In this document: one piece after another, positions 1-38,197 of the stretch | How the letters are laid out: each line of letters begins with the position of its first letter | Position numbering within the stretch: position 1 is the first letter of the stretch | Origin: Actinomycetota bacterium | Lineage (GTDB): Bacteria; Actinomycetota; Thermoleophilia; Gaiellales; Gaiellaceae | DNA: 38,197 bases | Direction: 5' to 3' | Assembly (NCBI GenBank): GCA_004366385.1 | Contig: SIRU01000006.1 | Span: 1-38,197, forward strand | Program-made: the position numbers and the translations under genes | The notes under the pieces: model-generated | The model's database searches: none | What the model was told of the DNA's origin: nothing | The model's input: only the letters and a program-made list of their open reading frames with translations

Positions 1-28
1 CGCTTCAGGTCCCTAGTCGAGCGCGCGC

Positions 29-74
29 AAAATCGAGTGCGGCTCCGGAATCGGGGGGCGGAGCCGCGCTCGAT
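29..74 (-). terminator. Intrinsic terminator of the complete giant gene
   Basis: On the minus strand a long stem (arms at 59-74 and 32-47) is followed directly by TTTT (32-29). The stem is ATCGAG, one mismatch, then GCGGCTCCG, paired with CGGAGCCGC, one mismatch, then CTCGAT. The loop is 11 nt and C/T rich. A GC-rich stem followed by a T-run is the classic rho-independent layout. It lies about 80 nt past the stop codon, behind another large hairpin. The inner stem recurs behind the upstream paralog at 21329-21360. Confidence 0.8.
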
Positions 75-80
75 GTGGGT

Positions 81-151
81 GGCCGCGACCTCGAAGAGCG
101 GCTCGCGTTTCCCTGGGGAGGAGCGGTGAGCCGCTCTTCGCGGTCGCGGCC
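81..151 (-). repeat. 24-bp near-perfect inverted repeat just after the stop codon
   Basis: The arms at 81-104 and 128-151 are complementary at 23 of 24 positions, with a single mismatch at 91 against 141. The loop is 23 nt. On the minus strand this hairpin begins 5 nt after the TAG stop of the giant gene. There is no T-tract directly behind it. It could protect the 3' end of the very long mRNA, help termination together with the hairpin at 29-74, or be a genome-wide repeat. Only the inverted repeat itself is seen. Confidence 0.75.
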
Positions 152-156
152 GTCGT

Positions 157-3100
157 CTAGGGCGTCTTGAAGGTCAGGACCAGCTGGGGCCCGTTCGAGC
201 CCTTCTCGCGGGCGTGGAACTGCTGCTCGGCATCCTGGCCCTCGGTCGCGTCGCGGATCAGGAAGCCGTTGTTCGTGCTCGCGTACATCGCGCCGACGAT
301 CGAGGTCACCGTCCACTGGCGCCAACCGCTGGCGGAGGTCGTGGTGGCCGCGGTCCCGGTCGTCGCCGGCTGGTTCGACCAGTTCACGCCGCCCTCGGTC
401 CAGGAGCCGTTCAGGCGGAGCGCCTGGAGCGTGCGCTGGCTGCCCGAGGTGGAGGCGGCGAACAGGCGCAGCGTCGCGGTGTCGAGGACGCAGCCGGACG
501 GGATCGTCGGGAGGTCGAAGCGGACGAGCGCGCGCAGGTTCCCGTTCCCGCTCTTGGACATGACCTTGAGGATGCCGTCCGAGCCCTTGTTCGACGACGG
601 GCTGCCCTGCTCGATCCAGGAGTCCGCGACGGCGTTCACCGTCTGGCTCGTGCCGCAGCTCGCGCCGCCGCCGCCGGACTGGATCGTCCAGTTGAAGGTC
701 GCGGGCGAGCCGTCGACGTTGCCGGCGGCGTCGATCGCGCGGACGCGGAACGTGTGGGCGCCGACCGCGAGGCCCGAGTGAGACCGCGGCGACGTGCAGC
801 TTGCGAACGCGGCCGTGTCCAGCGAGCACTCGAAGGTCGAGTTGGCCTCGGAGGAGGTGAAGGAGAACGACGCGCTCGTGCTCGTCGTCGTCGCGGCCGG
901 CGAGGCCGTGATCACGGTCTCGGGCGGCGTCTGGTCGATCACCCAGGTGAAGACCGCCGGCTGCGGGTCGACGTTCCCGGCGCCGTCCACGGCCCGCACG
1001 CGGAAGATGTGAGAGCCGGGCGCGAGGCCGGAGTAGGTCTGCGGGCTCGAGCATGCGTTCCAGGGGCCGTTGTCGGCGACGTCGAGCTGGCACTGGAAGG
1101 TCAGGCTGCCGGCCGGCGTGACGTCGTCGGTGCCGGTGAAGGTGAAGGTCGCGGACGTGCTCGAGGTGGACGCGAGCGGGGTGCCCGTGATCTGCGTGTC
1201 GGGGGCGCCGTTCGGCGGCGGCGGCGGCGCGCCGTTCCCGAGGGTCAGCACGAGCTGCGGCCGGTTCCTGCTCTCCTCGCGGGCATGGAGCTGCTGCTCC
1301 GCGTCCTGGCCCTCGATCATGTCGCGGATCAGGAAGCCGTTGTTGGTGCCGCCGTACTGCGCCTGCACCATCGCGGCGACGTTCCACTCGCGGTAGCCGG
1401 TTCCGGAGGCCACGGCGACCGCGGGGCCGGTCGTGGCCGGCTGGTTCGCCCACGTCACGCCGCCTTCCGTCCACGAGCCGGCGACCTGGTACGCCTCGAG
1501 CATGCGGTTCGCGGCGCTCGACTTCGCGTAGATGCGGAGCACCGCGTTCTCGACCGCGCAGCCCTGCGGGAGCGCCGGGAGGTTGAAGCGGACGAGAGCG
1601 CGCAGGTTGTTCGCCGGGCCCTTGGACATGAGCTTCAGGATCGAGTCGGAGCCCTTGTTCGACGACTGGCTGCCCTGGTCGATCCAGGCGTCGCCGCTCG
1701 CGGTCAGCGTCTGCGGCGCGCCGCAGTTGGTCGCGCCCTCGATCGTCCACGAGTAGCTCGCGGGCGTCGAGTCGACGTTGCCGGCGGCGTCGATCGCGCG
1801 GACGCGGAAGGTGTGCGCGCCGGGCAGGAGGTTGCTGTAGTTGACGCCCGAGGAGCAGGCCGTGAAGGTCGCGTTGTCGAGCGAGCACTGGAAGGTCGAG
1901 CCGGCCTCGGACGAGGTGAAGGAGAACGAGGCGCTCGTCTGCGTCGTCGTCGCCGGAGGCTGCGCCGTGATCGTCGTGTCGGGCGGCGTCGTGTCCGGCG
2001 GCGCCTGGATCGTCCACGTGCGGCCGGCGGGCGTCGCGTCCGTGTTCCCGGCCTGGTCGGTGGCGCGCACCTGGAAGGTGTGCGAGCCGAGCGACAGGCT
2101 GTTGTAGGTGATGCCCGACGTGCACGAGCTGAACGCGGCGCCGTCGAGCGAGCACTGGAAGGTCAGGCTCGCGGCCGGCGTGACGTTGTCGCTGCCGGTG
2201 AAGGTGAAGACGGCGGTCGTGCTCGTGGTCGTGGCCGTGGGCTGGCCGGTGATGGTCGTCTCCGGCGCGGTCGTGTCGAGCACGGTCCACGTGTACGTCG
2301 CAGGCGTCGGGTCGGCGTTGCCGGCGGCGTCGACCGCGCGCACGGCGAAGGTGTGCACGCCGGGAGCGAGGCCGTTGATCGTCCTCGGCGACGTGCAGCC
2401 CTGGAAGGCGCCGCCGTCGACGGAGCACTGGAAGTCGAGCGAGCCCGCCGGCGTGTGGTTGTCCGAGCCGGTGAAGGAGAACACGGCCGTCGTGTTCCCG
2501 GTCGAGGCCGGCGGCTGGTCGGTGATGGTCGTGTTCGGCGCGATCGCGTCCTGCACCGTCCACGTGTAGAGCGCGGGGGAGGCGTCCGTGTTCCCGGCCT
2601 CGTCGGTCGCGCGGACGCGGAAGGTGTGCGAGCCGATCGAGAGGTCGGAGTAGGAGTGCGGCGAGGTGCAGGCCGCGAACGGGTCGCCGTCGAGCGAGCA
2701 CTCGAAGGTGAGCTGGCCGGGAGCCGTGTGGTTGTCCGAGCCGGTGAACTCGAAGCTCGCGGACGTGCTCGGCGTGGACGCCGGCGGCTGCGACGTGATC
2801 GTCGTCTGCGGCGCCGTCGCGTCCACGACCGTCCACGAGTAGCTCGCGGGCGTCGAGTCGACGTTGCCGGCGGCATCGGTCGCGCGCACCTCGAAGGTGT
2901 GCGGGCCGATCGCGAGGCCGGAGTACGCCTTCGGCGAGACACAGGCGGCGAACGGGGCGCCGTCGAGCGAGCACTCGAAGGAGAGCGCGCCTGCGGCGTT
3001 GTCCGAGCCGGTGAAGGCGAGGCTCGCGCTCGTTGCCGGGGTCGAGGCGTCCGGGCCGGAGGTGATCGTCGTCTCCGGCGCCGTGACGTCGACGATCGTC

Positions 3101-6100
3101 CACGTGTACGCGGCCGGGCTCCCGTCGGTGTTGCCGGCCTCGTCCGTGGCGCGGACGCGGAAGGTGTGCGAGCCGACCGAGAGTGCCGTGTACTCCTTCG
3201 GCGACGCGCAGGAGATCCAGGCACCACCGTCGAGCGAGCACTCGAAGGCGAGGTCGATCGCCTCCGTCGCGTTGTCCGAGCCGGTGAAGGAGAAGCTCGC
3301 GCTCGTGTCCGCGGTGCTCGCGTCGGGCTGTCCCGTGATCGTCGTCTCGGGCGCGGCGCCGTCGAGAACCGTCCACGTGTGGGTCTCCGGTGTCGGGTCG
3401 ACGTTGCCGGCCTCGTCGATCGCGCGCACCCGGAAGGTGTGCTCGCCGACGCCGAGCGCGTCGTTCTCGAAGTGGGCCGGGCTGACGCAGGGCTCCCACG
3501 GGCTGTCGTCGAGCGAGCACTCGTAGGTGAGGTTCTCGGTCGAGCTGAAGTTGTCGCTGCCTGAGAAGTGGATGATCATCGAGCCCGTGTCGGTGCCCGT
3601 GATCTGCGTCTCGGGCGTGGTCACGTCGGGCGAGATCCACTGGTGGCTCGCGACGGCCGTGTTGCCGGCTGCGTCGACCGTCCGCACCTCGAACGTGCGC
3701 TCGCCGGGCTCGAGCTCGTCGTAGCTCTTCGGGCTCGCGCAGACGGCGAACGCGCCGTCGTCGAGCCTGCACTCGAAGGCGAGCGTGCCCGGGCTGTCGT
3801 CGGTCGCGGAGAACGTGAAGGTCGCGGAGTCGCCGGCCGTCTCCGCGTCGAGCTGGATCGCCGGCGCCTGCGTGTCGACCGTCCACGTCCACGTCGCCGG
3901 CTCGAGCTCGACGTTCTGGTTCTCCCCGAGGTCGGTCGCGACGACCTCGAAGGTGTGCTGGCCGGCGCCGAGACCCGTGTACGTGATCGGCGACGCGCAG
4001 TTGAGCGAGATGTCGGTCCCGTTCAGCGTGCAGGTGAACGTCGCCGGCTCGTCCGCCGAGAAGGTGAACGTCGCGCTCGTCGAGTTGGTCAGCGCCGGCG
4101 GGCCGGTGTGGATCGTCGTCACGGGCGGGGTCAGGTCGAGGATCTCCCACTCGAACTCGGCCGGGAACAGGCTCTCGTGGCCGGCGGCGTTGATGGCCCG
4201 CACCTCGAAGGTGTACTCCTCCTCGAGCGCGAGGTCGGTGTACGTCTTCGGCGACTCGCACGGCGACCATGTCAGCGTGCTGTTCTCGGCGGTCAGCTGG
4301 CACTCGAAGGTGCTGCCGGCCTGGTCGGACTCGAACTCGAAGGTCGCGCTCGTCTCGTCCGTCTGGACGCCCTGCTCGAGCGGGTCCTTGTCCTCGGGGC
4401 CGGAGGTGATGGTCGCGATCGGCCGTGCGAGCACTTCCCAGGTGTGCGACGCCGGCGTGAGGTCGAAGTAGCCGAGCTGGTTCACGGCGCGGACGAGCAG
4501 CGTGTGCTGGCCGACGGGCGACGTGAAGACGCGCGGCGTCGAGCACGAGCCCCAGCTCGAGCCGTCGAGCGAGCACTGGAACGTCGCGAGCGGGTCGTTC
4601 GACGTGAACTGGAACTGCACCTGCGCGGCGCCGATCTGGGTCTCGAGGACCGGAGCCTCCGGGGCCTGGGCGATCGTCGTCTGCGGCGAGAGCCCGGGGG
4701 CCTCGGCGACGCCGAACGGCGACAGGCTGGAGACGACGCCGCAGACGATCCCGGCATCGACGTCGAGCGTGGTGGTGACGTCGACCCACGCGCCGTTCTC
4801 GAAGTGCAGGAGCCGCGGCTCGTCGAGTGAGCCCGTGTCGTACGCGATGCACACCTCGACGTCGCCGCTGAAGCTCGCGGTGGTCGAGACGTCGACGAAG
4901 ATCGCGCCGGCCGGCAGGTAGCCCGCGGGCAGCGCCGAGGAGCCGACGAGGACGTCGAGCGTCGTCACGCCCTCGGCCGTGACGTTCTCGAACGTCGCCG
5001 AGCTGCCGCCGCCGAGGCTCACGCCGACCGGGCCGCCGACCGTCGTGTTCACGGTGCCCGCGACGACCGTCCAGGAGCGGGTGGCCGGAGTCTCGTCGAC
5101 GTTGCCGAGCAGGTCGACCGCGCGCACCTCGAGCGTGTGCGGGCCGACGCCGAGGCCAGTCACCGTGTGGCCTGCCTCGCAGCTCTGCCAGGCCGTACCG
5201 GTCGTCGGGTCGAGGCGGCACTCGTAGGTGAGGTTCGCGACGGCGGTCAGGTTGTCGGTGCCGGTGAAGACGAACGTCGCGGACGTGCTCGCCGTGGTGG
5301 CGCCGTCGGCGAGGCCGAGCGCGATGAACGTCTCCGGCGCCTCCGAGTCGGGCGCGTCGACCTCGAACTCGTACGAGGCGGGCGGGCTCTCGGTGACGCT
5401 GAGGGCCGTGATCGCGCGGACCTCGAGCACGTGCTCGCCGTTCGTCAGGCCGGTGAGCTCGAGCGGCGACGTGCAGGCCGTGAACGGATCGGTCGGGAGC
5501 GTCGCGTCGAGGCGGCACTGGTACGTCGAGCCGGGCTGGTCGAAGAACGTCACCGTCACGTCGGAGCTCGTGACCGTGCCGCCGTTCGGCACCGGGCCGG
5601 TGATCACGGTGGCGGGCGGCGCGACGACCTGCCACGTGTGCGTGGCGGGATCCGGGTCGGCGTTCGGATTTGCGCCGAGCGTGCCGCTGTCGACCGCGCG
5701 CACCCGGAACGTGTGCTCGCCGCCGGCGAGGCCGGAGAGCGTCAGCGGGGACGAGCAGGCCGTGAACGGCGCGGCGTCGAGCGAGCACTGGTAGGCGAGC
5801 TGCGACGTAGGCGTGCCGCCCGGATCCTCGCCGTCGAAGGTGAACACGACCTCGTTCCCCGTCACGTCCGCGACGAGCGGCTCGACGAAGAACGTGTCGG
5901 GCGCGGTCAGATCGGTGACCGTCCACGTGTACTCGAGCGGCTCGCCGTCGACGAGCAGGAACGGCGTCCGCGCGAAGACCTCGAACGTGTGCTCGACGCC
6001 GGCGCGGACCGTGTACTCGACTCCGGACAGGCACGGCAGCGGGCCCACGCCGTCGAGCGTGCACCAGAAGGTCGCCAGCGGGTCGGGCGAGGAGAACTCG

Positions 6101-9100
6101 AAGACCGCGGTCGTGTCCGTCGTGCCGTCGACGGGCGTGCTGTCGAGCGTGAGCTCCGGCGGGGTCAGGACGCCGCTCACCCACTCGAACTCGGCCGGCG
6201 ACAGGTCGCGCGTCCCGAGCGCGCCGACCGCCTGCACGCGGAACAGGTGGTTCCCGTACGGGATGCCGTCGTACGTCGCGGGCGAGGTGCACGGCGTGAA
6301 CGTGACCGAGTCGAGCGCGCACTCGAACGACGCGCCGGTGCCCGTGAAGGTGAACGTGACCGTCGTCGAGTCGGTGATGAAGTCAGGTGCCATGTCCGGC
6401 GTGACCAGCGTGATCTCCGTCTCCGGCTCGGCCTCGATCGTGAACGTCTGGGTCGTCGCGGCAGGCGTCGGGTCGACGTTGCCCGCGAGATCCATGGCCC
6501 GGACGAGGAAGTGGTACTCGCCGGCCGGGACGTCCTCGAGGAAGACCTCGTGGAAGAAGGAGTCGTCCGCCCAAGGCTCGCCGCACTGCTCCCACACGAG
6601 CGGGGCGGAGTCGTTCACGTCGTCGAGGGCGCACTCGAACTCGAGCTCGTACGACGACGCGAGGTCGTCGGAGCCGCGGAACGTGAAGCGGAAGCCGGGC
6701 TCGAGGAACTGCGCCGGGCCGATCTCCTGCACCGAGAGGAGCTCGGTCTCGGGCGGCGTGACGTCGCCGACCGACCACGTCCAGGTCGCGGGCGAGAGAT
6801 CCATGACCTGCTCGCCGTTCGCGTTCAGGAACTGGTTGACCGCACGCACCTCGAACTCGTGCTCCATCGGCTCGCCGCCCTCGCCGGGCAGGAACGGGCC
6901 GGCGGAGAACGGCGACGTGCAGGGCACCCACGGCGTCCCGTCGACCGAGCACTGGAACGTCGCGCCGGCCTGGTCGCTCGTGAACGTGAAGGTGGCGGTG
7001 AACGCGCCCGTGATCGCCGGCGGGCCGGAGGTGATGGTCGTGCTCGGCTCGCCCGTCGTGATCCAGACGAAGGGCTCCGTGCCCGGCGCCGGGGTCGGGT
7101 CGACGTTGCCCGCGAGGTCGATCGCGCGCACCCACAGCCAGTGCTGGCCGGAGCCGAGGCCTTCGAGGAACAGCGCCACGCCGCACTCCTGCCAGTTGTT
7201 CGCCGGCGGCGACGCAGGCGCCGGCCCCGAGCCCCAGTTGCACTCGAACGACTCGACCGCCTCGTCCGCCGCGAACGCGAAGACGATGTCCGGGCCGGAG
7301 TTGGCCGGGTCCGGGCTGACCACGATGAACGTCTCGGGCGGCGTCGTGTCGGGCACGCCGATGACGAGCCACTCGTAGTACGCCGGCGAGATGTCACGGT
7401 TGCCGTCGGAGTCGACCGCGCGCACGTGGAAGACGTGCAGGCCGTTCTCGAGCGGGCCGGCGATGAAGTGCGGCGACGTGCAGGGCTCGAACTCGCCCTC
7501 GTCGAGCGCGCACTCGAACTGGTTCACGGGGGAGCCGTCGATGAGCTCGAAGCCCTCGAACGTGAAGGTGGCGCTCGTCTCGGTCGTCTCCTCCTCCGGC
7601 CCGGTGAGGATCTCGGTGTCGGGCGCGGACATGTCGATGACCGTCCACGTGCGGCTCGCACCGACCGGGTCGACGTTGCCGGCCTCGTCGATCGCGCGCA
7701 CGACCAGCGTGTACGTGCCGGGCGCGGTGACCTCGATCTCCTCGGGCGACTCGCAGTTCCCGAGGCTCTGGCCGTTGAGCGAGCACTCGAAGTCGAGCTC
7801 GATTGCCGGCGTGAAGTCGTCGCTGCCGGAGAACTCGAAGAACTGGATGAAGTTCGGGGTCTCCGAGCCGTTCGCCGGGCCCTTCGTGATGACGGTCGAG
7901 GGCGGAGTGACGTCCGGGCCGATGACCTCCCACTCGTAGAGCGCGGGCGTGAGGTCGCTCCAGCCGAGCTCGTTGATCGCGCTCACCGTGAACTCGTGCT
8001 CGCCCACGCCGAACGGGCCCACGGTCACCGGCGACTCACACGGGAACGGCGGCTCGCCGTCGACCGAGCAGAGCGCGAGGGCGTTCGGCTGGTCGACCCA
8101 GAACTCGAACGTCGCGGAGCCGCTCGTCGTCGTCGGGAGGCCCGAGGGCCCGAGCGGGCCGTCGGGGCCGGAGATGATGTACGCCTCCGGCGCCATCCCG
8201 CCCGACGCGAGCGCGATCGCGAAGAGGGAGAAGCTCTCGGCCTCGCCGCAGACCTTGGCCGGCGAGGAGAACGGGTTGTTCACGGTCGTGATGTCGAGCC
8301 ACGTCTCGCCGTCGAAGTGGAGCAGGCGCACCGACGGGGTCGGCGAGCCGTACAGGAGCGGGTCGTAGCTGAGGCAGACGATCACGGGCTCCGTGTAGGT
8401 GGTCGTGGTCGAGATGTCGTACATGCGCGTGCTCGAGCCGCCGAAGCCCTCGGGCAGCGAGGGGCCGCCGCCGAGCTGCTCGAGCGTCGTGTGGCCGGCC
8501 GTCTGCACGCCGAAGAACGTCACGGTCGCGTTGCCGGCGCCGCCGGGCTGCGGGAGGCTCACGACGACGTTGCTGCCGGTGGGCGTGTTCGGCGGGCCGG
8601 ACGGCGCGGCGATCGTCCAGGAGTGTGACGCCGGAGTCGGGTCGACGTTCCCGGACATGTCGACGGCCCGTGCCGTGAACGTGTACGCGCCGGGCGTGAG
8701 GTCCGTGAGCTCGGTGACGATGCCCTGCTCGCAGCCGACCTGCGTGCCGTTCAGCGTGCAGGTGACGGTAGCGGTGGGATCGTCCGAGCTGACGCCCAGG
8801 TACGCGCTCGTGCTCGACGTCGTCGGCGACGGGCCGAAGTCGATGTAGGTGTCGGGCGGGTCGAAGTCCTGCACCGTCCACGTGTGCGTCGCCGGCACGG
8901 GGTCGAACTCGAGCGGCTCACCGCGCCAGTCGACGCCGTCGTACTGGGTCTGCACGCGGAAGGTGTGCTGGCCCGGCCAGAGGAAGTTGTACGTCTTCGG
9001 GGACGTGCAGAGGCCGAGCGGGCGGTCGTCGATCGCGCAGTAGAAGACGGCGTTCGGGTCGAGCGGCTCGGTCGTGAACTCGAACGTCGCCGTCGTGCCG

Positions 9101-21075: not shown

Positions 21076-21083
21076 GATTCCGT

Positions 21084-21088
21084 CCTCC
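21084..21088 (-). promoter_or_regulatory. Ribosome binding site of the complete giant gene
   Basis: Minus-strand GGAGG ends 8 nt before the TTG at 21075. A perfect anti-16S match at normal spacing supports the TTG start over the ATG at 21036. Confidence 0.8.
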
Positions 21089-21090
21089 CC

Positions 21091-21328
21091 GATCGACTTT
21101 CCCCACGACCACTCTCTCCCAGGGGCGTCAAACGGCCATAAGAGAAAGATGAAGAGACCTTCATCTTGTGTTCGAGAGGTTTCTCACCCTGCGATGGAGA
21201 TGTCCTGGCGGAGAGGGTTTGCGCGTGCGTGCGCACACGACACCGGCTCGCCCGGAATCCCCCGAATGGTGGAAGCGTGAGAGCCGGCTCAGGATCCCGG
21301 TCCAGGAGGAGGGCCCGGTCCGTACGAG
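21091..21328 (-). promoter_or_regulatory. Presumed promoter and leader region of the complete giant gene
   Basis: This non-coding stretch lies between the hairpins behind the upstream gene and the ribosome binding site, so it should hold the promoter if the two genes are transcribed separately. I found no good pair of -35/-10 boxes: TTGACG near 21130 has no matching -10 at 16-18 nt. It contains a 10-bp palindrome (21281-21290), GTGCGCAC (21229-21236), a pair of GAGAGG(G)TTT repeats on the plus strand (21174-21182 and 21211-21220), and the inverted repeat at 21146-21167. Short open frames here look random. Confidence 0.4.
21146..21167 (-). repeat. AT-rich 9-bp perfect inverted repeat upstream of the giant gene
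   Basis: Arms AAGATGAAG and CTTCATCTT are separated by 4 nt. The site lies about 70-90 nt upstream of the TTG start in otherwise GC-rich DNA. On the minus strand it is followed by TCTCTTAT, which is fairly U-rich in RNA, so it could be a weak terminator or attenuator. It could equally be a repressor site. The symmetry is certain; the role is not. Confidence 0.55.
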
Positions 21329-21381
21329 GAGCGGCTCCGGGATCGGGGGCGGAGCCGCTCTCGTCCTGGGCCCGGGACGAG
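21329..21381 (-). terminator. Two GC-rich hairpins behind the upstream giant gene
   Basis: A near-palindrome (21360-21381, arms CTCGTCC and GGACGAG) abuts a perfect 11-bp stem with a 10-nt loop (21329-21339 with 21350-21360). They lie 29-82 nt past the stop of the upstream gene. No T-tract follows, so termination strength is uncertain. The second stem and its loop nearly match the terminator hairpin at 39-67 of the other gene. Confidence 0.55.
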
Positions 21382-21409
21382 CCCGGGACACAGTTTTCTA
21401 TAGGGGCCG

Positions 21410-30400: not shown

Positions 30401-33400
30401 GTTCATCGCCTGCACCATGAACTCGTGCTCGCCCTCGCCGAGCGGGCCGACCGTGTACGGCGACTCGCAGTAGAACCAGGGAGCGCCGTCGACCGAGCAC
30501 AGCGTCACGGCCAGCGGGTCGTCCGACCAGAAGGTGAAGGTCGCCGATCCGCTCGTCGTGGTCGGGATGCCTTCCGCGTTCAGGTCGCCGGTCGGGCCGC
30601 TCAGGATGTACGTCTCGGGCGCCATCCCGGCCGAGGCCTCCGCGATCGCGAACGGCGAGAGGCTCTCGGCGAGGCCGCAGATCTTCGCGGTCGCGCCGAA
30701 CGGGTTGTTCAGGCTCGTGACGTCGATCCAGAGCTCGCCGTCGAAGTGGAGCAGGCGGACGCGCTGCGTCGAGTAGTTCTCCGGGTCGTACGTCAGACAG
30801 ACGGTGACGGGCTCGGAGAAGACGGCCGTCGTCGAGATGTCGTAGACGACGCCGCCGCCGTAGCCCTCGGGCAGCGGCGGGGCGCCGCCGAGCTGCTCGA
30901 CGGACGTGAAGCCGGCGGCCTCGACCCCGAAGAAGGTGACGGTGGCGTTGCCGGTGGCTCCCGGCTGCGGCAGCGTCACGGTGACGTTGGCGCCGACGGG
31001 CGTGTTGTTCGCCCCGGGCGGGGAGACCGTCCACGTGCGCACGGCGGGCGTCTCGTCGACGTTGCCGGACGCGTCGGTCGCCTGCGCCGTGAAGGTGTAC
31101 GTCGTGCCGGGCACGAGGTCGGTGAGCGCGGTGACGATGCCCTGCTCGCAGCCCTCCTGCACGCCGTTCAGCGTGCAGGTGACGACCGCCAGCGGGTCGT
31201 CGGAGCTGACGCCGAGGTACGCGGAGGTCGAGAACGTGGTCGCCGCCGGGCCGAAGGCGATGTACGTCTCGGGCGGCGTGAAGTCCTGGACCGTCCAGGT
31301 GTGCGTCGCCGGCACCGGCTCGAACTCGAGCGGCGCCCCGGTCCAGTCGACGCCGGTGTAGTGGGTCTGCACCCGGAAGGTGTGTGCGCCGGGCCAGAGG
31401 TTCGTGTACGTCTTCGGCGACGTGCAGAGGCCGAACGGCTTTCCGTCCAGCGAGCAGTAGTAGGTCGCGCCCGGATCGAGCGGCTGGGTCGAGAACTCGA
31501 ACGTGACCGTGGTGTCGGTCGTGTCGCCGGGGCCGGAGGTGATCACCGCGGCGGGCGGCAGGACGGTGAACTCGACGTCCTCCCAGGCGCCGATGTTGTT
31601 GAACGGATCGACCGCCCGCACCGCGAACAGGTGCGGCCCGAGGCCGAGGTTCTCGTACGTGACGCCCGAGGTGCACGGCGCCGGCGTCGTCGTGGTGCCG
31701 GGGTTGAAGCGGCCGTCGAGCCAGCAGTGGAAGGTGACGCCGGGGACGTCGCTCGTGAAGGTGAAGGTCGCGGTCCGGCTCGTGGACTCCTCCACCTCGA
31801 CGCCGGGCCCGCTCAGGATCGTCGTCGTCGGCGGGGGGGCGACGAACCACGTGTACACGTCGCACCAGCTCGTGCCGGGGCTGAACGGGCCGGTCTCCGG
31901 CACCGTGCACGTGTTCGGCGTGTTGTCGGCCAGGTTCGCCGCGTCGATCGCCCGCACGCGGAGCGTGTGCGTCCCGCGCGCGAGGTCGCCGAACTGCTGC
32001 GGTGAGACGCAGGAGCTCCACGAGGTGGTCGAGTCGAGCGCGCACTCGTAGCGCAGGCCCGACGCCGGCGTGCGGTTGTCCGAGCCGGTGAACGTGAACG
32101 TCGCCGTGGTGCTCAGCGTCCCGTTCTGCGGGCCGGTGAGGATGCGCGTCGTCGGGCGGGTCGTGTCGGGCCCGAGCTCGACGCGCCACTCGTACACCGC
32201 CTCCTCGCCGACGATGCCCTGCGGGTTGATCGCGCGGATCTCGACCTCGTTGTCGCCGCTCGTGACCACCCAGGCGGCGAAGGTGAAGACGACGGGATCC
32301 GTCTCGGCCGGGTCGGCGGGCGTGTTGCACGGCGCGAAGTCGCCGCCCTCGAACGAGCACTCGAACGTCGAGCCGGGCTGGTCGGCGCGGAAGGTGAAGA
32401 TCGCGCTCTCGCTCGAGCTGTACGGCAGCGCGGCGACGCCCGTAGCCGGGTCGATCTTGCCGGCGGGGCCGCTGAGGATCGTCGTGACCGGCGGGGCCGC
32501 CACGGTGAGCGCGCGGGTCGCCGGGATGCTGCCGTTGCCCATGAGGTCGAACGCCCGCACGGCGACCGTGTACGTGCCCGGGTCGAGGCCGTTGACGCTG
32601 TGCGGCGACGTGCACGTCGGCACCGAGCCCCACTGGACGTCGGCCACGCTCTGCTGCTCGGAGATGACCGTGCACCGGTACACGAGCCGGCCCATCGGGG
32701 TCGCGTTGTCTGAGCCGAAGAACGTGTACGGATCGGCCTCGGCGACGGTGGCGCCGTCAGCGGGCCCGCCGGAGATCGACACGGTCGGCGGCGTCGCGTC
32801 CGCGATCGGCGTCCAGGTGAACGAGGCCGGCGTCGGATCCGGGTTGCCCTCGAAGTCGGGCTGCGTGGGCGGCGGGAACTCGAGCTCCGCCATGTCGACC
32901 GCGCGCACCCAGAACGTCTTCTCGACGAGGCCCATGAGCGGGTCGGCGTACGTGTACGCGTCGAGGAGGTTGAACGGGCTGAAGCACGGGAGCCAGAGGT
33001 TCTGGTTCGGCGGCTGGGTGCCGAACGTGAGCTGGCACTCGAACCGGAGCAGGAACTCGGGCGTCAGGTCGTCGGCGCCGCTGAACTCGAAGGTCGTCGC
33101 GCTCAGGTCCGCCACGATCGGCGTGCTCTCGATGAACGTCTCCGGCGGCAGCGTGTCCGCCGGGTCGACGATCTCCCACTCGTACACGGCGGGCTCGAGC
33201 TCGGCCGCGGAGGCGAAGCCCTCGACCTCCGCGAACACCTCGAGGACGTGGTCGCCCGGCGCGAGCGCGTAGGCGAACGGATCGTTCGCCGGGAGCCCGA
33301 CGCCGAGGCCTGCGCGGAACGGCGACGCGCACGGGAAGAAGTCGCCCGGGTCGAGGCTGTCGAAGCGACACCAGAACTCGGCGCCCTCGACGTTCGCCGT

Positions 33401-36400
33401 GAACTCGATCACCGCATTCGGCGCGGAGGTCGGGCCGCCGGTCGCGGGCACGCCCTCCGGGCCGCCGGTCGCCGGCGTGAAGCCGGGCCCGTCGGTGAAG
33501 GTGACGACGACGCCGAGGAGCGTCCAGGTGAAGGTCGTCGGCTCGCCGACGTTGCCCTCGAAGTCGATCGCTCGGACCTCGAACGTGTGCGGGCCGGCCT
33601 GGGTCTCGAGCAGCTGCCACTCGAACGCGCCCTGGTGCATGAAGGTCGCGCCCTCGAAGCCGCACGGCTGCCAGCCGGACGCGTCGACGCGGCACTGGAA
33701 GACGACGTCGGGCTCGTTCGCCTCGAACGTGAAGATCGCGTCGAGGAGCCAGGTCTGGACGCCGGCGTTGTCCGGATCCATGTCCAGCGGCGCGTGGTTG
33801 ATCGTGACCGTGGGCGCGACACCGGCCGGCAGCGGCACGTACCTCCACTCGTAGCGCGCAGGCGTCGGGTCGGCGAGGCCGGTGCCGAGCCTGGTGATCG
33901 CGCGCACCTCGAACACGTGCGGGCCCGGGCTCAGGTTCAGGTACTCGGCCGGGTACTCGCAGTCCTCCCACGCGCCGGGGTTCGTGGAGTCGAGGCGGCA
34001 CTCGAAGACGAGGTTCCCGGCGATCGGGTTGTCGCCGTCCGAGCCGAGGTACGTGAAGCTCGCGTTCCGGCTGTTCGACTGGATGCCGGGCGTGCCGGTG
34101 TCGGCGTCGGCCGGGCCGGAGACGACCCACGTCTCGGGCGCGCCGGGGATCTCGAGGAGCTCGCAGACGACGCCGAAGCACTGGTCGGGCTCCATGTTCC
34201 CGGCCGCGAAGTTGCCGCCGCCGTCGTGCGCGCCGACGGCGTAGATGCCCCAGCCGCCGTTCATCTGCGCGACGTTGCCGCTGACGTCGTGACCCGGGCC
34301 CTCGACGTAGATGCCGTCGCCGCCGTTCGCGTCCGCGGTGTTCCGCGCGACCTCGTTGCCGCGGTTGACGATCGAGGTCTCGGTCACCTCGATGCCGGCG
34401 CCGCCGTTCCCGCTCGCGACGTTGTCCACGATGCGGTTGTCGAGCGAGATCTCGGCGACGGAGATGCCGGTGCCGCCGGTGCCGCTCGCGTTGTTCCGGC
34501 TGATCGTGTTGTCGTTGGCCTCGGACAGGACGATGCCGCTGCCGTTGCCCGCGAGCTCGTTGCCGATGACGTCGTTGTCGTTGGCGAGCTCGAGTGCGAT
34601 GCCCGGGCCGGTGGCGCCGGCGATCGTGTTGTTCAGGATCGCGTTGCCGTTGCCGCTCATGAGCACGCCGCCCTGGCCGCCGCGGATGGTGTTGCGCTGG
34701 ATCGAGTTGCCGTTCGAGCCGAGGAGGTCGTTGCCGGCGACGATCCCGGACGCGCTGCTGTCCTTGATCGTGTTCTCGAGGATGACGTTGTCGCCACCGC
34801 CGACGATGGCCACGCCAGCGCCGCCGCTGCCGGCGATCGTGTTGCCCTCGATCCGGTTCTGCCGCGCGAACTCGAGGTAGACGGCGCCCTCGCCGCCGTT
34901 CGCGGCGAGCGAGTTGCCCTTCACGAGCGTGTGCTGCGTGCCCGTGTACAGGGCGATGCCGAGCTCGTTCCCGATGATCGTGTTGTTCCGGAGCGTGTTG
35001 CCCTGGCCGCCCTGGTCCGCGTCCGCGAGGGCGATGCCGGCCTCCTCGTTCTGCTCGATGCGGAGGTCGGAGACGATGTTTCCGGCCGTCCCCGGGTTCA
35101 GCTGCACGCCGTACAGGAACTGGAGGATGTAGCCGTTCGTGATCGTGACGTTGTCGTGGCCGTTGTTGAGGATCCCGGCGTCGAGGCCCATGCCGTCGAG
35201 CGTGTGGCCGTCGAGGTCGATGGTGATGTTCGGGGCGCCGACGACGAGCGCGTAGCCGCCGCAGTCGATGAGGTCGTTCGTCAGGCGCGTCGACTGCGTG
35301 AGGATCTGGCCGCAGAAGACCTCGGTTGCGACCGGCGGCGCGCCGATCGTCCACGTGGAGAACGCCTCGACCTCACGCTGCTGCGCGTCGGTCGCGCGGA
35401 CCCAGAACGTGTACGTGCCGGGGTCGAGGCCGGTGAAGCGGACCGGCGACCGGACCGACGAGCTGTTCGCCGGCGGGGCGCACGCCGCCGGCGTGCCGTA
35501 GCTGTCGGGCGCCCCGGTGCCTGCCACGAGCGCGCACTCGTACGTGATCGGCGCGGTGCCGCGCGCGGACGAGAACTCGAACGTCGCGGAGGTCTGGACG
35601 GTGACCGGGTCGGGCGCCGCGTCGATCGTGACCTGGAAGTCTCCGAGCTCGACCGTCCACGACCACTCGGCGGGCGTCGGGTCCTTGTTCCCGGAGAAGT
35701 CCACCGCGCGCACCGCGAACGTGTACTCACCGTTGCTGAGCCCGCCGTAGACGGCCGGGTTCGTGCAGGGGGCGAACTCGCTGTTCTGGAACGAGCACTC
35801 GAACGTGACCGGGCTCGCGTTGTCGGCGCCCGCGAAGCGGAGCTTGGCGACGTCATCCGGGTCCGGGTCGTTCGGGCCCTCGAGGATCGAGGTCTCGGGC
35901 GCGATCTGGTCGCCGCCGCCCGGGCCTGCGAGGCAGTTGACGTTGTAGCACTGCTGCGGCTTCAGGTCGGTGCCGAGCGGGCCCTTGTTGCCCTGGGCCA
36001 CGTTGCCGCCGCCGTCGATGTTGGCGCGGCCGTTGGACGGGTCGCCGACCCAGATGCCCCAGCTGTCGTTGTCGAAGGCCACGTTGGCCCTGAAGATGTG
36101 GCTCGGCTTCGACGCCTGGATGCCCATCGTCGTGTTCGAGTTGGTCGTGTTGCCCTCGACGAGCGTGCCCTGGCCGGCCGGCGTCTCGTCGCCGATGTAG
36201 ATGCCGGTGCCGCCGTTGTCGCTCGAGTGGTTCCCGCGCACGACGTTGCTGAAGGACTGCGACTCGAGCGTGATGCCGGTCGAGTCGGACTCGCCCGCGT
36301 CGTTGCCCTGGATCACGTTCCCGCTCGACCCCTTGAGCGAGATGCCGCCCTTGTTCCCGCTGACGTCGTTGCCCTTGATCAGGTTGTCGTCGGCCTGGAA

Positions 36401-38197
36401 GAGGTCGATCGCGTACGAGGAGACGACGGTGGCGACGTTGTCGACGATCGTGTTGTCGTTCGACTTCTCGATGTCGAATGCCGGGCCGGCGCTGTCCGTG
36501 ATCGTGTTGCCCTCGACCGTGTTCCCGCTCGACTCGATGCCGGTCGGGGCGCTCGTGGTCGCGCGGATGACGACGCCGTTGCCGACGTCCTCGATCACGT
36601 TGCCGCGGATGACGTTGTCCGTCGCGCCCTCGAGCAGCGCGCCGGCCTTGCTGGCGACCTCGATGTCGTTGCCGAGGATGCGGTTCTGGCCGGAGCGCTC
36701 GATGAACACGGCCTCGCCGCTCGTCGCGCCGATGAGGCTGTCGCGCACGACGTTCCGGCTCGCGCCGTTCAGCATCCAGACGCCGCGCGCGTTCGAGACG
36801 AGCGTGCTCGAGCGGACGATGTTGTCCGTCACCTGCGACTGCACGCCCGGCGGCGGGTTGCTCGGAGCCTGCGTCGCGTCCTCCGGCGCCGTCGGCTGGC
36901 CGAGCCCGATGCCCGCGTCCTGGTTCAGGTGCGCCGTGACGCCGTCGACGATGGTGTTCTTCGTCCCGAAGTTGAGCGCCACGCCGTAGTCGAAGTCGGT
37001 CAGCGTGCCGTTCCTGATCGTGACGTTGTCGTAGCCGTTGTTCAGGATCCCGGCGCCTATCGACTTGCCGTCGATCGTCTTGCCGTTCAGGTCGATGGTG
37101 ATGTTGTCGGCGCCGACGATCAGGCCGTGGCCGGTGCAGTCGCCGAGGCTGTTCAGCACGAGCGTGCTCGTCGTGAGCTTCTGGCCGCAGAACACCGCCC
37201 GCGGGACGGGCGCCGGCCCGAGCATCCACGTGTAGGCCGCGGGGGTGCCGAGATGGACATTGTCGTCCACGTTCCCCGCCTCGTCCACGGCGCGCACCTG
37301 GAGGATCTGCTCGGTCAGAGTCGCCGGGCTCGTCAGCGTCACGTCGTACGGCGACGGGCACGGCGTCCACGACGGCTCGCCCGCCGCCATCGCGCCGTTG
37401 AGGCGGCACTCGAACGTGAGGTCTTCGGGCGCGGTCTGGTTGTCGCTGCCGGTGAACGTGAAGGTCGCGGTCGTGGACACCGTCGTGGCGTCCGGGCCGG
37501 TGAGGATCTCGGTGTCCGGCGCCTTGGTGTCGGGCGGCGGCGGGTGGACCCACCAGGAGTGGTACGCCGGCTCGATGTCCACGTTCCCGGCGAGGTCGAT
37601 CGACCTCACCATGAAGATGTGCCCGCCGTAGGCGAGGTCGGCGTAGCTCTTCGGCGAGTCGCAGTCTCCCCACGCGCCCCAGTCGACGCCCGGGCTCTCC
37701 GGCGCGAGCGCGTACTCGTTCGGGTGGTGGCCGATGCGGCACTCGTACTCGAGGTTGTAGCCCGCCGTGACGTTGTCGCTGCCGGTGAAGCGCAGGGTGG
37801 CCGAGCGGCTCGTGGTGGAGAGGTACTCGATCGGCGCGCCGGTCTCCGGGTCGAGCACGGGCACGACGGTGGTGGTCACGACGCCGGTGCCCGGATCGGT
37901 GTGGGTGACCACCCTCCGGAGCTCCCGGACCTCGCCGGGGGCGGAGGTGATCCGCGTGTCCGGCGGGACCGGCGGATGCTCGTTCTCGCCCTCGTCGTCG
38001 ACGCCGGCGTGGATCGTCCACTCGTACACCTCGGGCGTCAGGTCCCAGTTCCGCGCCCAGTCGATCGCGCGCACCTCGAACTTGTGCTCGCCGGGCTCCA
38101 GGCCGAGGAACGTGTGCGGGCTCACGCAGTCGGACCAGCCCTCGCCCTCGAGCGGCTCGGGACCCGGGTCACCCTCGGGCGGCTCGAGCTGCGGCTC
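21410..38197 (-). CDS. Giant multidomain beta-helix / Ig-like / DNRLRE protein, tandem paralog, 5' end outside the window
   Basis: The frame is open from the TAG stop (21412-21410) to the right edge. The GTG at 38125 is an internal Val codon, because the 24 codons upstream of it are open and match the other gene (...GWSDCVSP). About 5,595 codons are visible. Visible domains in order: the end of one Ig-like repeat, two Ig-like, beta-helix 35915-37192, two Ig-like, beta-helix 34160-35316, ten Ig-like, a beta-rich module 30622-31010, eleven Ig-like, a second module 27025-27400, fifteen Ig-like, DNRLRE, two Ig-like, DNRLRE. This matches the gene at 157-21075 from about its residue 1,790 onward, except for four extra Ig-like repeats. 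By that comparison the full protein would be near 7,400 residues, with a signal peptide and two more beta-helices off the edge; this is inference. No C-terminal anchor is seen. Function is unknown; surface adhesion or matrix building is a guess from the domains. Confidence 0.94.
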   Translation of the reverse strand, partial: EPQLEPPEGDPGPEPLEGEGWSDCVSPHTFLGLEPGEHKFEVRAIDWARNWDLTPEVYEWTIHAGVDDEGENEHPPVPPDTRITSAPGEVRELRRVVTHTDPGTGVVTTTVVPVLDPETGAPIEYLSTTSRSATLRFTGSDNVTAGYNLEYECRIGHHPNEYALAPESPGVDWGAWGDCDSPKSYADLAYGGHIFMVRSIDLAGNVDIEPAYHSWWVHPPPPDTKAPDTEILTGPDATTVSTTATFTFTGSDNQTAPEDLTFECRLNGAMAAGEPSWTPCPSPYDVTLTSPATLTEQILQVRAVDEAGNVDDNVHLGTPAAYTWMLGPAPVPRAVFCGQKLTTSTLVLNSLGDCTGHGLIVGADNITIDLNGKTIDGKSIGAGILNNGYDNVTIRNGTLTDFDYGVALNFGTKNTIVDGVTAHLNQDAGIGLGQPTAPEDATQAPSNPPPGVQSQVTDNIVRSSTLVSNARGVWMLNGASRNVVRDSLIGATSGEAVFIERSGQNRILGNDIEVASKAGALLEGATDNVIRGNVIEDVGNGVVIRATTSAPTGIESSGNTVEGNTITDSAGPAFDIEKSNDNTIVDNVATVVSSYAIDLFQADDNLIKGNDVSGNKGGISLKGSSGNVIQGNDAGESDSTGITLESQSFSNVVRGNHSSDNGGTGIYIGDETPAGQGTLVEGNTTNSNTTMGIQASKPSHIFRANVAFDNDSWGIWVGDPSNGRANIDGGGNVAQGNKGPLGTDLKPQQCYNVNCLAGPGGGDQIAPETSILEGPNDPDPDDVAKLRFAGADNASPVTFECSFQNSEFAPCTNPAVYGGLSNGEYTFAVRAVDFSGNKDPTPAEWSWTVELGDFQVTIDAAPDPVTVQTSATFEFSSARGTAPITYECALVAGTGAPDSYGTPAACAPPANSSSVRSPVRFTGLDPGTYTFWVRATDAQQREVEAFSTWTIGAPPVATEVFCGQILTQSTRLTNDLIDCGGYALVVGAPNITIDLDGHTLDGMGLDAGILNNGHDNVTITNGYILQFLYGVQLNPGTAGNIVSDLRIEQNEEAGIALADADQGGQGNTLRNNTIIGNELGIALYTGTQHTLVKGNSLAANGGEGAVYLEFARQNRIEGNTIAGSGGAGVAIVGGGDNVILENTIKDSSASGIVAGNDLLGSNGNSIQRNTIRGGQGGVLMSGNGNAILNNTIAGATGPGIALELANDNDVIGNELAGNGSGIVLSEANDNTISRNNASGTGGTGISVAEISLDNRIVDNVASGNGGAGIEVTETSIVNRGNEVARNTADANGGDGIYVEGPGHDVSGNVAQMNGGWGIYAVGAHDGGGNFAAGNMEPDQCFGVVCELLEIPGAPETWVVSGPADADTGTPGIQSNSRNASFTYLGSDGDNPIAGNLVFECRLDSTNPGAWEDCEYPAEYLNLSPGPHVFEVRAITRLGTGLADPTPARYEWRYVPLPAGVAPTVTINHAPLDMDPDNAGVQTWLLDAIFTFEANEPDVVFQCRVDASGWQPCGFEGATFMHQGAFEWQLLETQAGPHTFEVRAIDFEGNVGEPTTFTWTLLGVVVTFTDGPGFTPATGGPEGVPATGGPTSAPNAVIEFTANVEGAEFWCRFDSLDPGDFFPCASPFRAGLGVGLPANDPFAYALAPGDHVLEVFAEVEGFASAAELEPAVYEWEIVDPADTLPPETFIESTPIVADLSATTFEFSGADDLTPEFLLRFECQLTFGTQPPNQNLWLPCFSPFNLLDAYTYADPLMGLVEKTFWVRAVDMAELEFPPPTQPDFEGNPDPTPASFTWTPIADATPPTVSISGGPADGATVAEADPYTFFGSDNATPMGRLVYRCTVISEQQSVADVQWGSVPTCTSPHSVNGLDPGTYTVAVRAFDLMGNGSIPATRALTVAAPPVTTILSGPAGKIDPATGVAALPYSSSESAIFTFRADQPGSTFECSFEGGDFAPCNTPADPAETDPVVFTFAAWVVTSGDNEVEIRAINPQGIVGEEAVYEWRVELGPDTTRPTTRILTGPQNGTLSTTATFTFTGSDNRTPASGLRYECALDSTTSWSSCVSPQQFGDLARGTHTLRVRAIDAANLADNTPNTCTVPETGPFSPGTSWCDVYTWFVAPPPTTTILSGPGVEVEESTSRTATFTFTSDVPGVTFHCWLDGRFNPGTTTTPAPCTSGVTYENLGLGPHLFAVRAVDPFNNIGAWEDVEFTVLPPAAVITSGPGDTTDTTVTFEFSTQPLDPGATYYCSLDGKPFGLCTSPKTYTNLWPGAHTFRVQTHYTGVDWTGAPLEFEPVPATHTWTVQDFTPPETYIAFGPAATTFSTSAYLGVSSDDPLAVVTCTLNGVQEGCEQGIVTALTDLVPGTTYTFTAQATDASGNVDETPAVRTWTVSPPGANNTPVGANVTVTLPQPGATGNATVTFFGVEAAGFTSVEQLGGAPPLPEGYGGGVVYDISTTAVFSEPVTVCLTYDPENYSTQRVRLLHFDGELWIDVTSLNNPFGATAKICGLAESLSPFAIAEASAGMAPETYILSGPTGDLNAEGIPTTTSGSATFTFWSDDPLAVTLCSVDGAPWFYCESPYTVGPLGEGEHEFMVQAMNILGWPDLTPALYEWEIIGPDVTPPSTVITRGPTGTTPNFISTFEFSGTDDFTPALELDFLCTLNGENLGNCESPEQIEVTAPGEYTLLVQAIDEAGNVDPVGATRTWTVLDLSAPDTEILSGPEQETTETSATFEFEGFELLDGSPVNQFECMLDEGEFVPCTSPHVIEGPLAAGLHVFHVRAVDPDGNRDISPAYWEWTIVTPPDTTPPDTFIVSGPDPANSGPDAIFAFASNEPAEFECVMGTLTAENPNVPASAPATGWTECGAVHILEGLSSGTRWLFVRAIDFAEPTPNVDWQTPAGPYVWTTLGEPDTEILTGPPLVSGAGTAIFEFESNQVGATFQCSVDDSLFVPCTSPHNAGYFLPGVDGEPLEHTFQVRAVNQHTTLEGAQVVDLSPAVYEWAVQDVDAPNTVFLGVTEIGPPQFIEPGLRFHFRGDDDLGSSYNLTFECMLDNTEVAGDETWEECGEPLTWIDGTTVLDDAFAHDIAFADLAAGPYRFSVRALDVVENADPTPAPADGYAFVVEAEPDTFIDGVFDGTTPVFDLTAELLTEEQSITFEFSSDTPGTTFLCRLSTVSMAPPQYTPCTSPVEYTGVAYGTHVFSVLAVGQYGTPDPEAAVFEWQSGYLTAPDVAITSAPANPTVEPTATFEFESSDPLAFFQCQLDTGPILPCASPFTYPNPDQPVLLAGDQNPHTFTVTAWKPHLLAAELQATHEWVITDDAPPNTIITQAPSALIPSGSDVTFAFTGTDNGTLPEQLGFECSLDGAPFAECSSPLTLTGLPGGTRTFEVRAIDAVPLTDPTPASYTWQVVAPPSTVITGGPPLVAGVTESPDATFTFFDQPGSTYECRLDPADPQVLTGGWTACNSGTVTYTGLTNGEHLFQVRATTLLGVVENPPASFTWTIDAPDAIPPDTSIDVGLAGPTTSTTASIFFSGSDNLTPAALITFQCRLDGVGEFTACTSPLGLTGLEPGEHTLEVRAIDADGNVDPTPASHTWTVVAAEDDNTSVGTGVTVDLGGGASATFQNVTGAGLTSLSIMSGSTTLPDGYTGASAIFFDISTTASYSGTIEICLPTGGLDEPHLLHFEGGAWVDVATSIKVVSGITVVCGSVSSLSPFGVAEAPGLSPDTEIGLYPDDPSLETAYGGALTDFAFTSDQQTVTFQCSLDNAPWNSCAAQYRFFALLGTHTLRVRALNAAGYYDLTPATHTWTVLARPVATIDSTLVDQDPSTPDSIETESRTATFELSSDQPNSTFECLLDHDETTTVWQPCESPVTYTNLPLGEQTLYVKAINAAGHESLFPAEFEWEVADLTAPVTTIVSGPADPTSSKSATFVFESNEPATFFCALGTAATQPCTSGFTFTNLSAGTRTFTVYAVDTWGNVELEPKTYTWTIDLSAPVIDLAAITVGDTATFTFSASDNLDEGPFAFQCSLDGGEFVPCSSGVEYVDLDPGTRTFEVRTADSVGNVGTASHTWESPDVTPPDTGLAVFSGSVIFHFSGSDNFTAAEELTFECSLDGSDWVPCVSPVVYENDAVGVGQHTFLVRAVDAAGNVDPTPESHTWTVLDTKAPDTTITSGPDSPTPGTAASFAFGGSDDTSAAGDLTFECSLDGADFAACTSPAGYSGLAAGSHTLRVRATDEAGNTDPTPATYTWEILDTTAPSTLVTDGPPAATGDTSATFEFTATDDVTTAGGFTFECSLDGAEFAACTSPATYSGLSVGDHTFQVRATDAAGNTDATPATRTWEVLDTTGPVTTITAQPDAQTGDTSASFSFTGSDDVTPATGLTYECSLDGAEFAACTSPAAYSGLAVGDHTCRVRATDAAGNTGAAASATWEVLDTTAPVTEITGSPAAATGATSATFEFTATDDVTTSGFTFECSLDGAPFVACTSPATYSGLAVGDHTFQVRATDAAGNTGAAASATWEVLDTIAPVTTIDGGPDASTDDTSATFTFSATDDVSGAAAITFECSIDGAPFAACESPETVSGLFPGSHTFRVRATDAAGNTGAAASSTWTVNDTTPPDTTITNGPPASSGSTTASFSFTANDDVTIAGFGFQCSLDGAAFTGCSSPATYTGLTIATHTFQVRAIDGAGNVDPTPATYMWQVTDVTPPDTGITAKPDPSTTSTSATFAFAGTDNHTPAVSLTFECSLDGADFAACTSPATYSVAVGAHTFRVRAVDAAGNHDLSPANHAWTVLDSTAPETTIDSGPPASTDSGNATFTFSGTDDVTASPTFRCQLDDGPLGACTSPKSYTGLAPGTHTFSVQAVDAAGNVDPSPATYTWTVRDVTAPETSITGQPAALTTNTSAAFAFTGTDDGTVSSLLSFECSLDGADFAACTSPATYSGLAVGSHTFQVRATDAAENTDATPATWTWTVQELTDTTPPETTITGQPPATTIDTSASFSFSASDDVPGTLTFQCQLDTGAWSGCASPASYSGLAVGSHTFRVRATDAAGNVDPTPATYGWTVQSPVNCGTEQTLTAAADAWIDQSSSTSNKGSDSILKVMSKSGNGNLRAVVRFNLPTMPQGCSVEYASLRIFAKSGAANRTLQAIQLGAAWTESGVTWANQPATTGGAAVTTSGTGYRDWNVASLVQEQYLGGNNGFLIRDATENQDAEQQFHAREESTNRPLLVLKLWSGAAPPPSSSGDSTPPDTTITGSPLAASSSTSATFTFTGVDNVTAPAALTFECQLNGGAWSACTSPTSYSGLAQGSHIFNVRAKDQAGNVDPQPAQYTWTVDTTAPETVITNGPGTTTTSTSASFSFTSSEAGSTFQCALDGGSFTACTSPASYSNLAVGTHTFQVRATDPAGNTDATPATYTWTIQSGGGGGGANCGTAQTVTAVADSWISQGSPSSNNGSDGILKVMSKSGSNAMRALVRFNLPAIPSGCVLDTATLRLFAASASSGTRTLQAFRANAVWNESTVTWSNQPATIGSAVTTTSGAGYRQWGVTTIVSSMYSSGSNNGFLIRDATENQDAEQQFHAREKGESPPQLVLTFRPS
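21413..22990 (-). other. C-terminal DNRLRE / Ig / Ig / DNRLRE cassette, upstream paralog
   Basis: DNRLRE copies lie at about 22505-22990 and 21413-21912, with two Ig-like repeats at about 21940-22470. Marks include DAWIDQ or DSWISQ, SNKGSD or SNNGSD, WTESGV followed by W-A-N-Q-P, NNGFLIRD and HARE. Same order as at the end of the other gene. Confidence 0.87.
22995..27020 (-). repeat. Expanded Ig-like array 3 of the upstream paralog (15 repeats)
   Basis: Fifteen units of about 89 residues, against 11 in the other gene. Units 7-10 are very similar even at DNA level (compare 24680-24840 with 25210-25390). Units 8, 9 and 10 share a private ending, AGNTGAAAS, in place of the usual AGN-D-x-TPA. 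Unit 8 has an extra cysteine (codon 24962-24964) where its neighbours have Phe. Confidence 0.87.
27025..27400 (-). other. Beta-rich module, second copy, upstream paralog
   Basis: Same marks as at 4696-5052: SATFQNVTGAG, FDISTTASYSG, LLHFEGGAW, and VCGSVSSLSPFGVA. It precedes the expanded Ig-like array. Confidence 0.7.
27410..30618 (-). repeat. Ig-like array 2 of the upstream paralog (11 repeats)
   Basis: Eleven units pair one-to-one with those at 5055-8192, including the variants beginning SAPDTEIL, EPDTEIL and EPDTFI. Confidence 0.8.
30622..31010 (-). other. Beta-rich module, first copy, upstream paralog
   Basis: Same marks as at 8196-8592: NATVTFFGVE, LPEGYGG, YDISTTAVFSEP, VCLTYDP, RLLHFDG, and ICGLAESLSPFAIA. 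Sits at the same place between Ig-like arrays 1 and 2. Confidence 0.7.
31020..34150 (-). repeat. Ig-like array 1 of the upstream paralog (10 repeats)
   Basis: Ten units follow the same order as 8600-11655, recognisable by shared idiosyncratic starts such as VVVTFTDGPGF and AEADPYTF. This shows the units were already distinct before the two genes separated. Confidence 0.8.
34160..35316 (-). other. Beta-helix in the upstream paralog (equivalent of helix 4)
   Basis: Starts FCGQILTQST, with ITIDLDGHTLDG, GILNNGHDNVTI and FLYGVQL. It closes with DGGGNFAAGN and C-F-G-V-V-C. Counterpart of 11680-12831. Confidence 0.87.
35915..37192 (-). other. Beta-helix in the upstream paralog (equivalent of helix 3)
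   Basis: Starts FCGQKLTTST, with ITIDLNGKTIDG, GILNNGYDNVTI and DFDYGVAL. It closes with DGGGNVAQGN and C-Y-N-V-N-C. Almost the same length as its counterpart at 13405-14682. Confidence 0.87.

Follow-up and report, generated by a model that had tools for sequence, protein, structure and literature searches.

A tandem pair of colinear giant genes for predicted secreted beta-helix/Ig proteins, adjoined by two-component genes on an inserted island of an Actinomycetota genome

The window analysed here, 38,197 nucleotides in length, is the whole of contig C6 in a host genome of 2.73 Mb and 63 contigs, and it carries two giant genes, A and B (Table 1). Gene A is complete, with a TTG start preceded by GGGGAGGA, and encodes a product of ~730 kDa with a predicted pI of 4.2. 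Given that the window is the entire contig, gene B could not be completed inside it. Contig C38 (3,438 bp) is open throughout, continues gene B and overlaps the end of C6 by 149–152 bp at 97%, and the last 1.9 kb of contig C43 hold the N-terminal 630 codons, which begin with a GTG with a good ribosome site after GGGGAGGAG and encode a hydrophobic signal segment and a CSLREA-like helix 66% identical to A. Going by colinearity with A, C43 would precede C38, and the near-identity of A and B in the stretch between them leaves ~100 codons of gene B unread; the contig breaks fall in such near-identical stretches, which explains the fragmentation of gene B. We estimate the full length of gene B at ~7,420 aa. 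An earlier note on this DNA had described two adjacent, same-direction genes of about 7,000 codons each, and had asked how the upstream gene begins past position 38197 and whether more copies follow. Both frames are indeed open and B, like A, begins with a hydrophobic signal segment and a CSLREA-like helix, but a third copy was not found, as other genes occupy both flanks: a disulphide oxidoreductase gene, read on contig C51, is the next gene after A, and kinase and regulator genes lie ahead of B. As a result of the 70% GC repeat composition, the real genes are overlaid by spurious long ORFs, the longest of 2,345 aa (8884..15336 and 24968..32005 of the window on the plus strand, and others), and automatic gene callers may mis-annotate loci of such composition.

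Table 1. Features of the window, in window coordinates.
Feature	Position	Strand	Basis or remark
Region downstream of gene A	1..156	minus	first 135 bases overlap C51 (97.8%)
Gene A, complete, giant secreted protein (predicted)	157..21075	minus	ORF, translation, domains; 6,972 aa, stop-free
A C-terminal cassette: CBM96 II, Ig 40-41, CBM96 III at C-terminus	160..1722	minus	
A variable Ig tail, units 34-39 (6 units)	1738..3369	minus	best matches within gene
A Ig stalk, units 8-33	3367..11649	minus	unit HMM, unit tree
Two non-Ig modules interrupting A Ig stalk	8197-8610, 4690-5064	minus	
A helix 4, NosD-like	11692..12852	minus	
A helix 3, NosD/AlgE-like beta-helix	13408..14694	minus	AlphaFold2 mean pLDDT 90.7
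A helix 2, NosD-like	15940..17214	minus	
A CBM96/DNRLRE module I	17284..17790	minus	Pfam PF24517 70.8 bits, NCBIfam NF033679 67 bits
A helix 1, right-handed beta-helix, CSLREA-like N-terminus	18466..20868	minus	NCBIfam, Pfam Beta_helix
A choice-of-anchor Q domain, end of helix 1	18475-18645	minus	NCBIfam choice_anch_Q
A N-terminus with hydrophobic signal segment (residues 41-59)	20878..21075	minus	hydropathy 2.0 over 19 residues
Intergenic region, promoter-like, gene A's own	21076..21409	minus	
Gene B, 3' part	21410..38197	minus	open frame, 5,595 aa, start outside window
B C-terminal cassette: CBM96, Ig 44-45, CBM96	21413..22990	minus	Ig units, homology to A
B variable Ig tail, units 34-43 (10 units)	23003..25717	minus	
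B helices 3 (35918-37201) and 4 (34178-35338)	34178..37201	minus	colinear with A

The modules run from the signal segment through beta-helix 1 with its choice-of-anchor Q domain, two Ig units, a CBM96 module and helix 2 to three Ig units, helix 3, two Ig units, helix 4 and an Ig stalk with two unmatched modules, and end with the variable Ig tail, a CBM96 module, two Ig units and a terminal CBM96 module. Against curated models, the choice-of-anchor Q domain (NF041518) scored 72 bits in A and 73.6 bits in the homologue at locus L052 (cut-off 25), and CBM96/DNRLRE modules scored 70.8 and 200 bits with PF24517 (cut-off 26) and 67 and 185 bits with NF033679 (cut-off 34). The CSLREA domain (TIGR04214) stayed below its cut-off of 25 bits in A (22.0), B (19.8) and Nocardioides astragali (24.2), so that the N-terminal helices are called similar only. 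Pfam and NCBIfam scans gave no family match for the two stalk modules of A (~125–139 aa) and revealed no toxin or lytic domain, and an LPxTG-like sortase motif was absent from the last 200 residues, the giant proteins ending in CBM96.

By the unit profile, A has 41 Ig units and B has 45. At least two cysteines are present in 86/86 units, and one cysteine pair, invariant in the alignment of double Ig units, probably forms a disulphide. Modelled with AlphaFold2 (pLDDT 97.4), an Ig pair of A is a predicted Ig/FN3-like sandwich and not a membrane barrel, unlike Leptospira OmpL47; summed over the second half of A, the Ig units reach 354 bits with the OmpL47-type domain model (NF047446), and the OmpL47 equivalog model (NF047441) is not reached (92 vs 250 bits). 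For the helices, the general Pfam NosD model is matched whereas the NosD copper maturation model (TIGR04247) is not (96.5 vs 300 bits). The model of helix 3 superposes on AlgE epimerase modules with a Z of 35.8 and 2.3 Å over 319 residues, and the giant-protein helix has its beta-helix fold in common with the A-modules of AlgE4 and AlgE6 and with NosD (Z about 32–36). However, identity to these proteins is 14–19% and the AlgE catalytic motif is missing: the segment aligned with AlgE4 lacks residues matching DPHE, and neither DPHE nor DPHQ occurs in A, in the window part of B or in five homologues. We did not take fold matches as function.

A and B share 68.6% protein identity over 6,784 aligned residues and 77% DNA identity. 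In the unit tree, 31 of the 41 A Ig units (30 of A01–A33, plus A40/B44) each join the B unit at the colinear position as a tip pair, with support mostly >0.9, and best-match scores additionally pair A03, A31 and A41 with their B counterparts. The tail departs from this pattern, as A34–39 (6 units) and B34–43 (10 units) are not one-to-one and mostly find their best matches inside their own gene, which suggests that it was expanded or homogenised after duplication. The earlier note had proposed a whole-gene duplication from a shared unit order and from units more alike between genes than within them; both observations hold along the genes and fail only in this tail block, and whole-gene duplication is confirmed. 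Given that A and B split together from all other homologues (support 97–100), the duplication belongs to the host lineage. Estimated with a simple method, dN/dS between the copies is 0.5–0.65 in most blocks, indicating only moderate constraint, and 0.94 in A 4800–5900. Values of dS, probably underestimated because of codon bias, are 0.14 in A codons 550–800 versus 0.25–0.50 elsewhere, consistent with local gene conversion. With its fixed core, variable Ig tail and local conversion, the tandem pair is a natural case for studying the divergence of a 21-kb gene after duplication.

Full-length colinear homologues were found in Jiangella aurantiaca, Nocardioides gansuensis, N. astragali and two further genomes, all single-copy, with open frames of 6,670–6,798 aa and 37 Ig units each. 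They are mutually 78–85% identical and share 59–61% identity with A over 6,200–6,780 aa. Shorter relatives have ~2,900–3,100 aa (11–13 Ig units) or ~4,100 aa (18 units), and one genome has two copies, of 6,670 and 4,097 aa, far apart. The search of related genomes that the earlier note had advised thus recovered the gene, but no second tandem full-length pair among the homologue genomes found. What matters here is that the family has retained its ~6,700 residues and the arrangement of its 37 Ig units in separate taxonomic orders.

Within the host genus, the giant gene had no match in 10 other genomes, several of which are incomplete; one lacking it has an RpoB 94% identical to that of the host, and another (G038) is 97% complete on one contig. 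In the host family and order only isolated modules match, and in a sample of the phylum the single matching genome out of 396 is the host's own. In the same-genus genome G033, tRNA-Ser(CGA) lies ~20 bp from the oxidoreductase gene, and these two genes bracket the block in the host genome, where the tRNA gene is at C43:25209-25296. Given this junction and the absence from the 10 genomes, the pair sits on an inserted island, whose size of ~52 kb is the sum of contig parts, with part of the island unassembled. The block shows the insertion beside a tRNA gene, and the empty junction in a relative, that are expected of a tRNA-site island. The flanks on C43 and C51 are genus-typical (77% and 75% DNA identity), and GC content is 70–71% in the island vs 71–72% in the flanks. 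Other genes on the island encode a flavin reductase-like protein and a protein kinase, along with two kinase/regulator pairs; no integrase was found among the island genes scanned, and no tRNA end repeat of ≥10 bp at the far island end. RpoB of the host is 58–59% identical to that of Jiangella and Nocardioides, and the giant protein A is 59–61% identical; between Jiangella and Nocardioides the values are 76–78% for RpoB and 80–81% for the giant protein. Conservation equal to that of RpoB is unusual for a secreted repeat protein and points to transfer, and the family appears to move horizontally. A plasmid was also considered as the source, but a 917-aa query gave one short weak match, in Streptomyces chartreusis, and thus no plasmid source. 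Around the insertion site there are three tRNA-Ser genes (GCT, CGA and GGA; L017:5039-5297, L018:1548-1638), and beyond the island lie a DUF6351 tannase-like gene and a bacterial large SRP RNA (L018:4212-6590, L018:9056-9320).

Two-component genes adjoin the giant gene at 14/14 loci read, which are related loci with at least three arrangements (OmpR-type upstream, NarL-type upstream and OmpR-type downstream). At the first nine a histidine kinase adjoins, as does a response regulator except at K540, where the sequence read ends; both adjoin the giant gene at all five loci read after the prediction was recorded. At locus M1020 the response regulator matches in two pieces. Given a density of one response regulator per 94–141 kb in four of these genomes, we estimate chance adjacency at a few per cent per locus. 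The regulator ahead of B resembles the one in front of the Jiangella gene (70% identity) more closely than the other regulator on its island (61%). Three NarL-type loci have a palindrome, CGTTCA-N6/7-TGAACG, immediately ahead of the giant gene. The direct repeat TTCATC-N5-CTTAT is found ahead of A, at 21137-21154 on the minus strand, and recurs ahead of both B and the Jiangella gene; given that 7/100 shuffles reach the observed value for this OmpR-type motif, it is suggestive only and was kept as a lead. Taken together, the neighbouring two-component system probably controls the giant gene, and this regulator offers a concrete way into the question of when cells make so costly a protein, and why. 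Further CGTTCA-N6-TGAACG palindromes occur in N. astragali (G131:C9 477308, 478533 and 478657) at other genes near the kinase, possibly a small regulon.

The closest published case, as portrayed in the giant-gene text of PMC12863079, is a row of giant genes in Apilactobacillus kunkeei. According to that text, Giant1–5 are consecutive genes for extracellular proteins of 3,000–8,000 aa with beta-solenoid domains, they are thought to derive from duplication, and positional homologues are more alike than neighbours. In contrast to the 69% identity between A and B, neighbours there share <20%, the host group and the modules differ, and the term two-component does not appear in the text on those genes (PMC12863079). 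The giant surface proteins surveyed in PMC11573180 resemble A and B in size, secretion and repeats; however, giant genes are described there as strain-specific (citing Reva and Tummler), whereas the family of A and B keeps its length and module order across orders. CBM96 binds alginate in one protein, via named Lys/Arg/Tyr residues (PMC9971899). A is like CBM96/DNRLRE proteins in having three such modules, but it bears them in a giant stalk without a recognised catalytic domain. In the literature searched, with most subscription journals outside its scope, we found no description of the giant-protein family or of its two-component link, and CSLREA turned up only incidentally, in two papers. 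The full-length single-copy homologues, the inserted island and the accompanying two-component system go beyond the earlier note and are new.

We interpret the locus as encoding a two-component-controlled, secreted, polysaccharide-binding fibre that was acquired horizontally and then duplicated, a reading to which we assign a probability of roughly two in three and in which control, secretion, ligand and role are inferred. A block of ~52 kb with kinase and response-regulator genes and one giant gene would have entered by horizontal transfer; the giant gene would then have been duplicated and the copies diverged, with local conversion near A codons 550–800 and separate expansion of the Ig tails. 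Upon an envelope or environmental signal, the adjacent two-component system may turn the giant gene on, and the product may leave the cell by the general secretion route and form a long fibre of ~40 Ig units. Its beta-helices and three CBM96 modules could bind polysaccharide, be it in the coat of the cell itself, in a biofilm matrix or on a surface, so that the giant protein would act as an adhesin or matrix linker and not as an enzyme.

The beta-helix fold is common to many non-enzymes, NosD and adhesins among them, and this weighs against the idea of a polysaccharide-processing machine in which the four beta-helices work as lyases or epimerases while the Ig and CBM96 modules keep them on the substrate. 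Mannuronan C-5 epimerases and lyases are the nearest solved folds and CBM96 was defined in an alginate lyase (PMC9971899), but with the DPHE motif missing from the giant proteins searched, a check confined to AlgE-type catalysis, we consider enzymatic processing unlikely. Size and Ig stalk would also suit a fibre for contact with prey or neighbours, like the giant hook or adhesin proteins of predatory or aggregating bacteria, and the many Ig/FN3 folds matched by the Ig model include SiiE, SraP, RbmA and the grappling hook protein GhpA. These matches are, however, generic to the fold and have low TM-scores, and the domain scans turned up nothing toxic or lytic, which makes such a contact role quite improbable.

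An ancestral locus lost in the sampled relatives, without horizontal transfer, could likewise give a sporadic distribution, and the incompleteness of several same-genus genomes leaves some room for it; but near-complete genomes of the genus, such as G038 (97% complete, one contig), lack the gene, the junction at the site is intact and tight in G033, and A is as similar to the Jiangella and Nocardioides copies as RpoB is, and we regard loss alone as a rather poor candidate. As to an artefact of assembly or binning, in the form of a chimeric duplicate or a contig from another organism, which the earlier note had wished to see excluded, gene B is indeed spread over three contigs with breaks exactly in regions where A and B are nearly identical. 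Yet 77% DNA identity is too low for strain variants, a single contig contains A together with the 3' part of B and the region between them, and the two sides have separate flanks, genus-typical on C43 as on C51 (77% and 75%), so that an artefact is highly improbable and the pair can be taken as real.

Extending the fibre reading to the whole family is more tentative, and we rate it at somewhat less than even odds. The family would then represent a mobile signalling-plus-fibre module of extracellular polysaccharide-binding giants of 3,000–7,400 aa, whose length and module order persist in distant lineages; a neighbouring two-component system would govern each of them, its regulator type (OmpR or NarL) being swapped while the target stays.

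Further genes with similar modules were seen in passing. In N. astragali a distant relative of 2,195 aa lies directly downstream of the giant gene in the same direction (L069; G131:C9:447104-453691), and in N. gansuensis a separate gene of 1,013 aa in the vicinity of the giant one contains two CBM96 and beta-helix stretches (L068:12414-15452; G130:C12:100414-103455). The host genome itself carries, away from the pair, another beta-helix/Ig gene, of 1,758 aa that is open at a contig end (L019:786-6059; G000:C9) and has ~65% DNA identity to the Ig tails.
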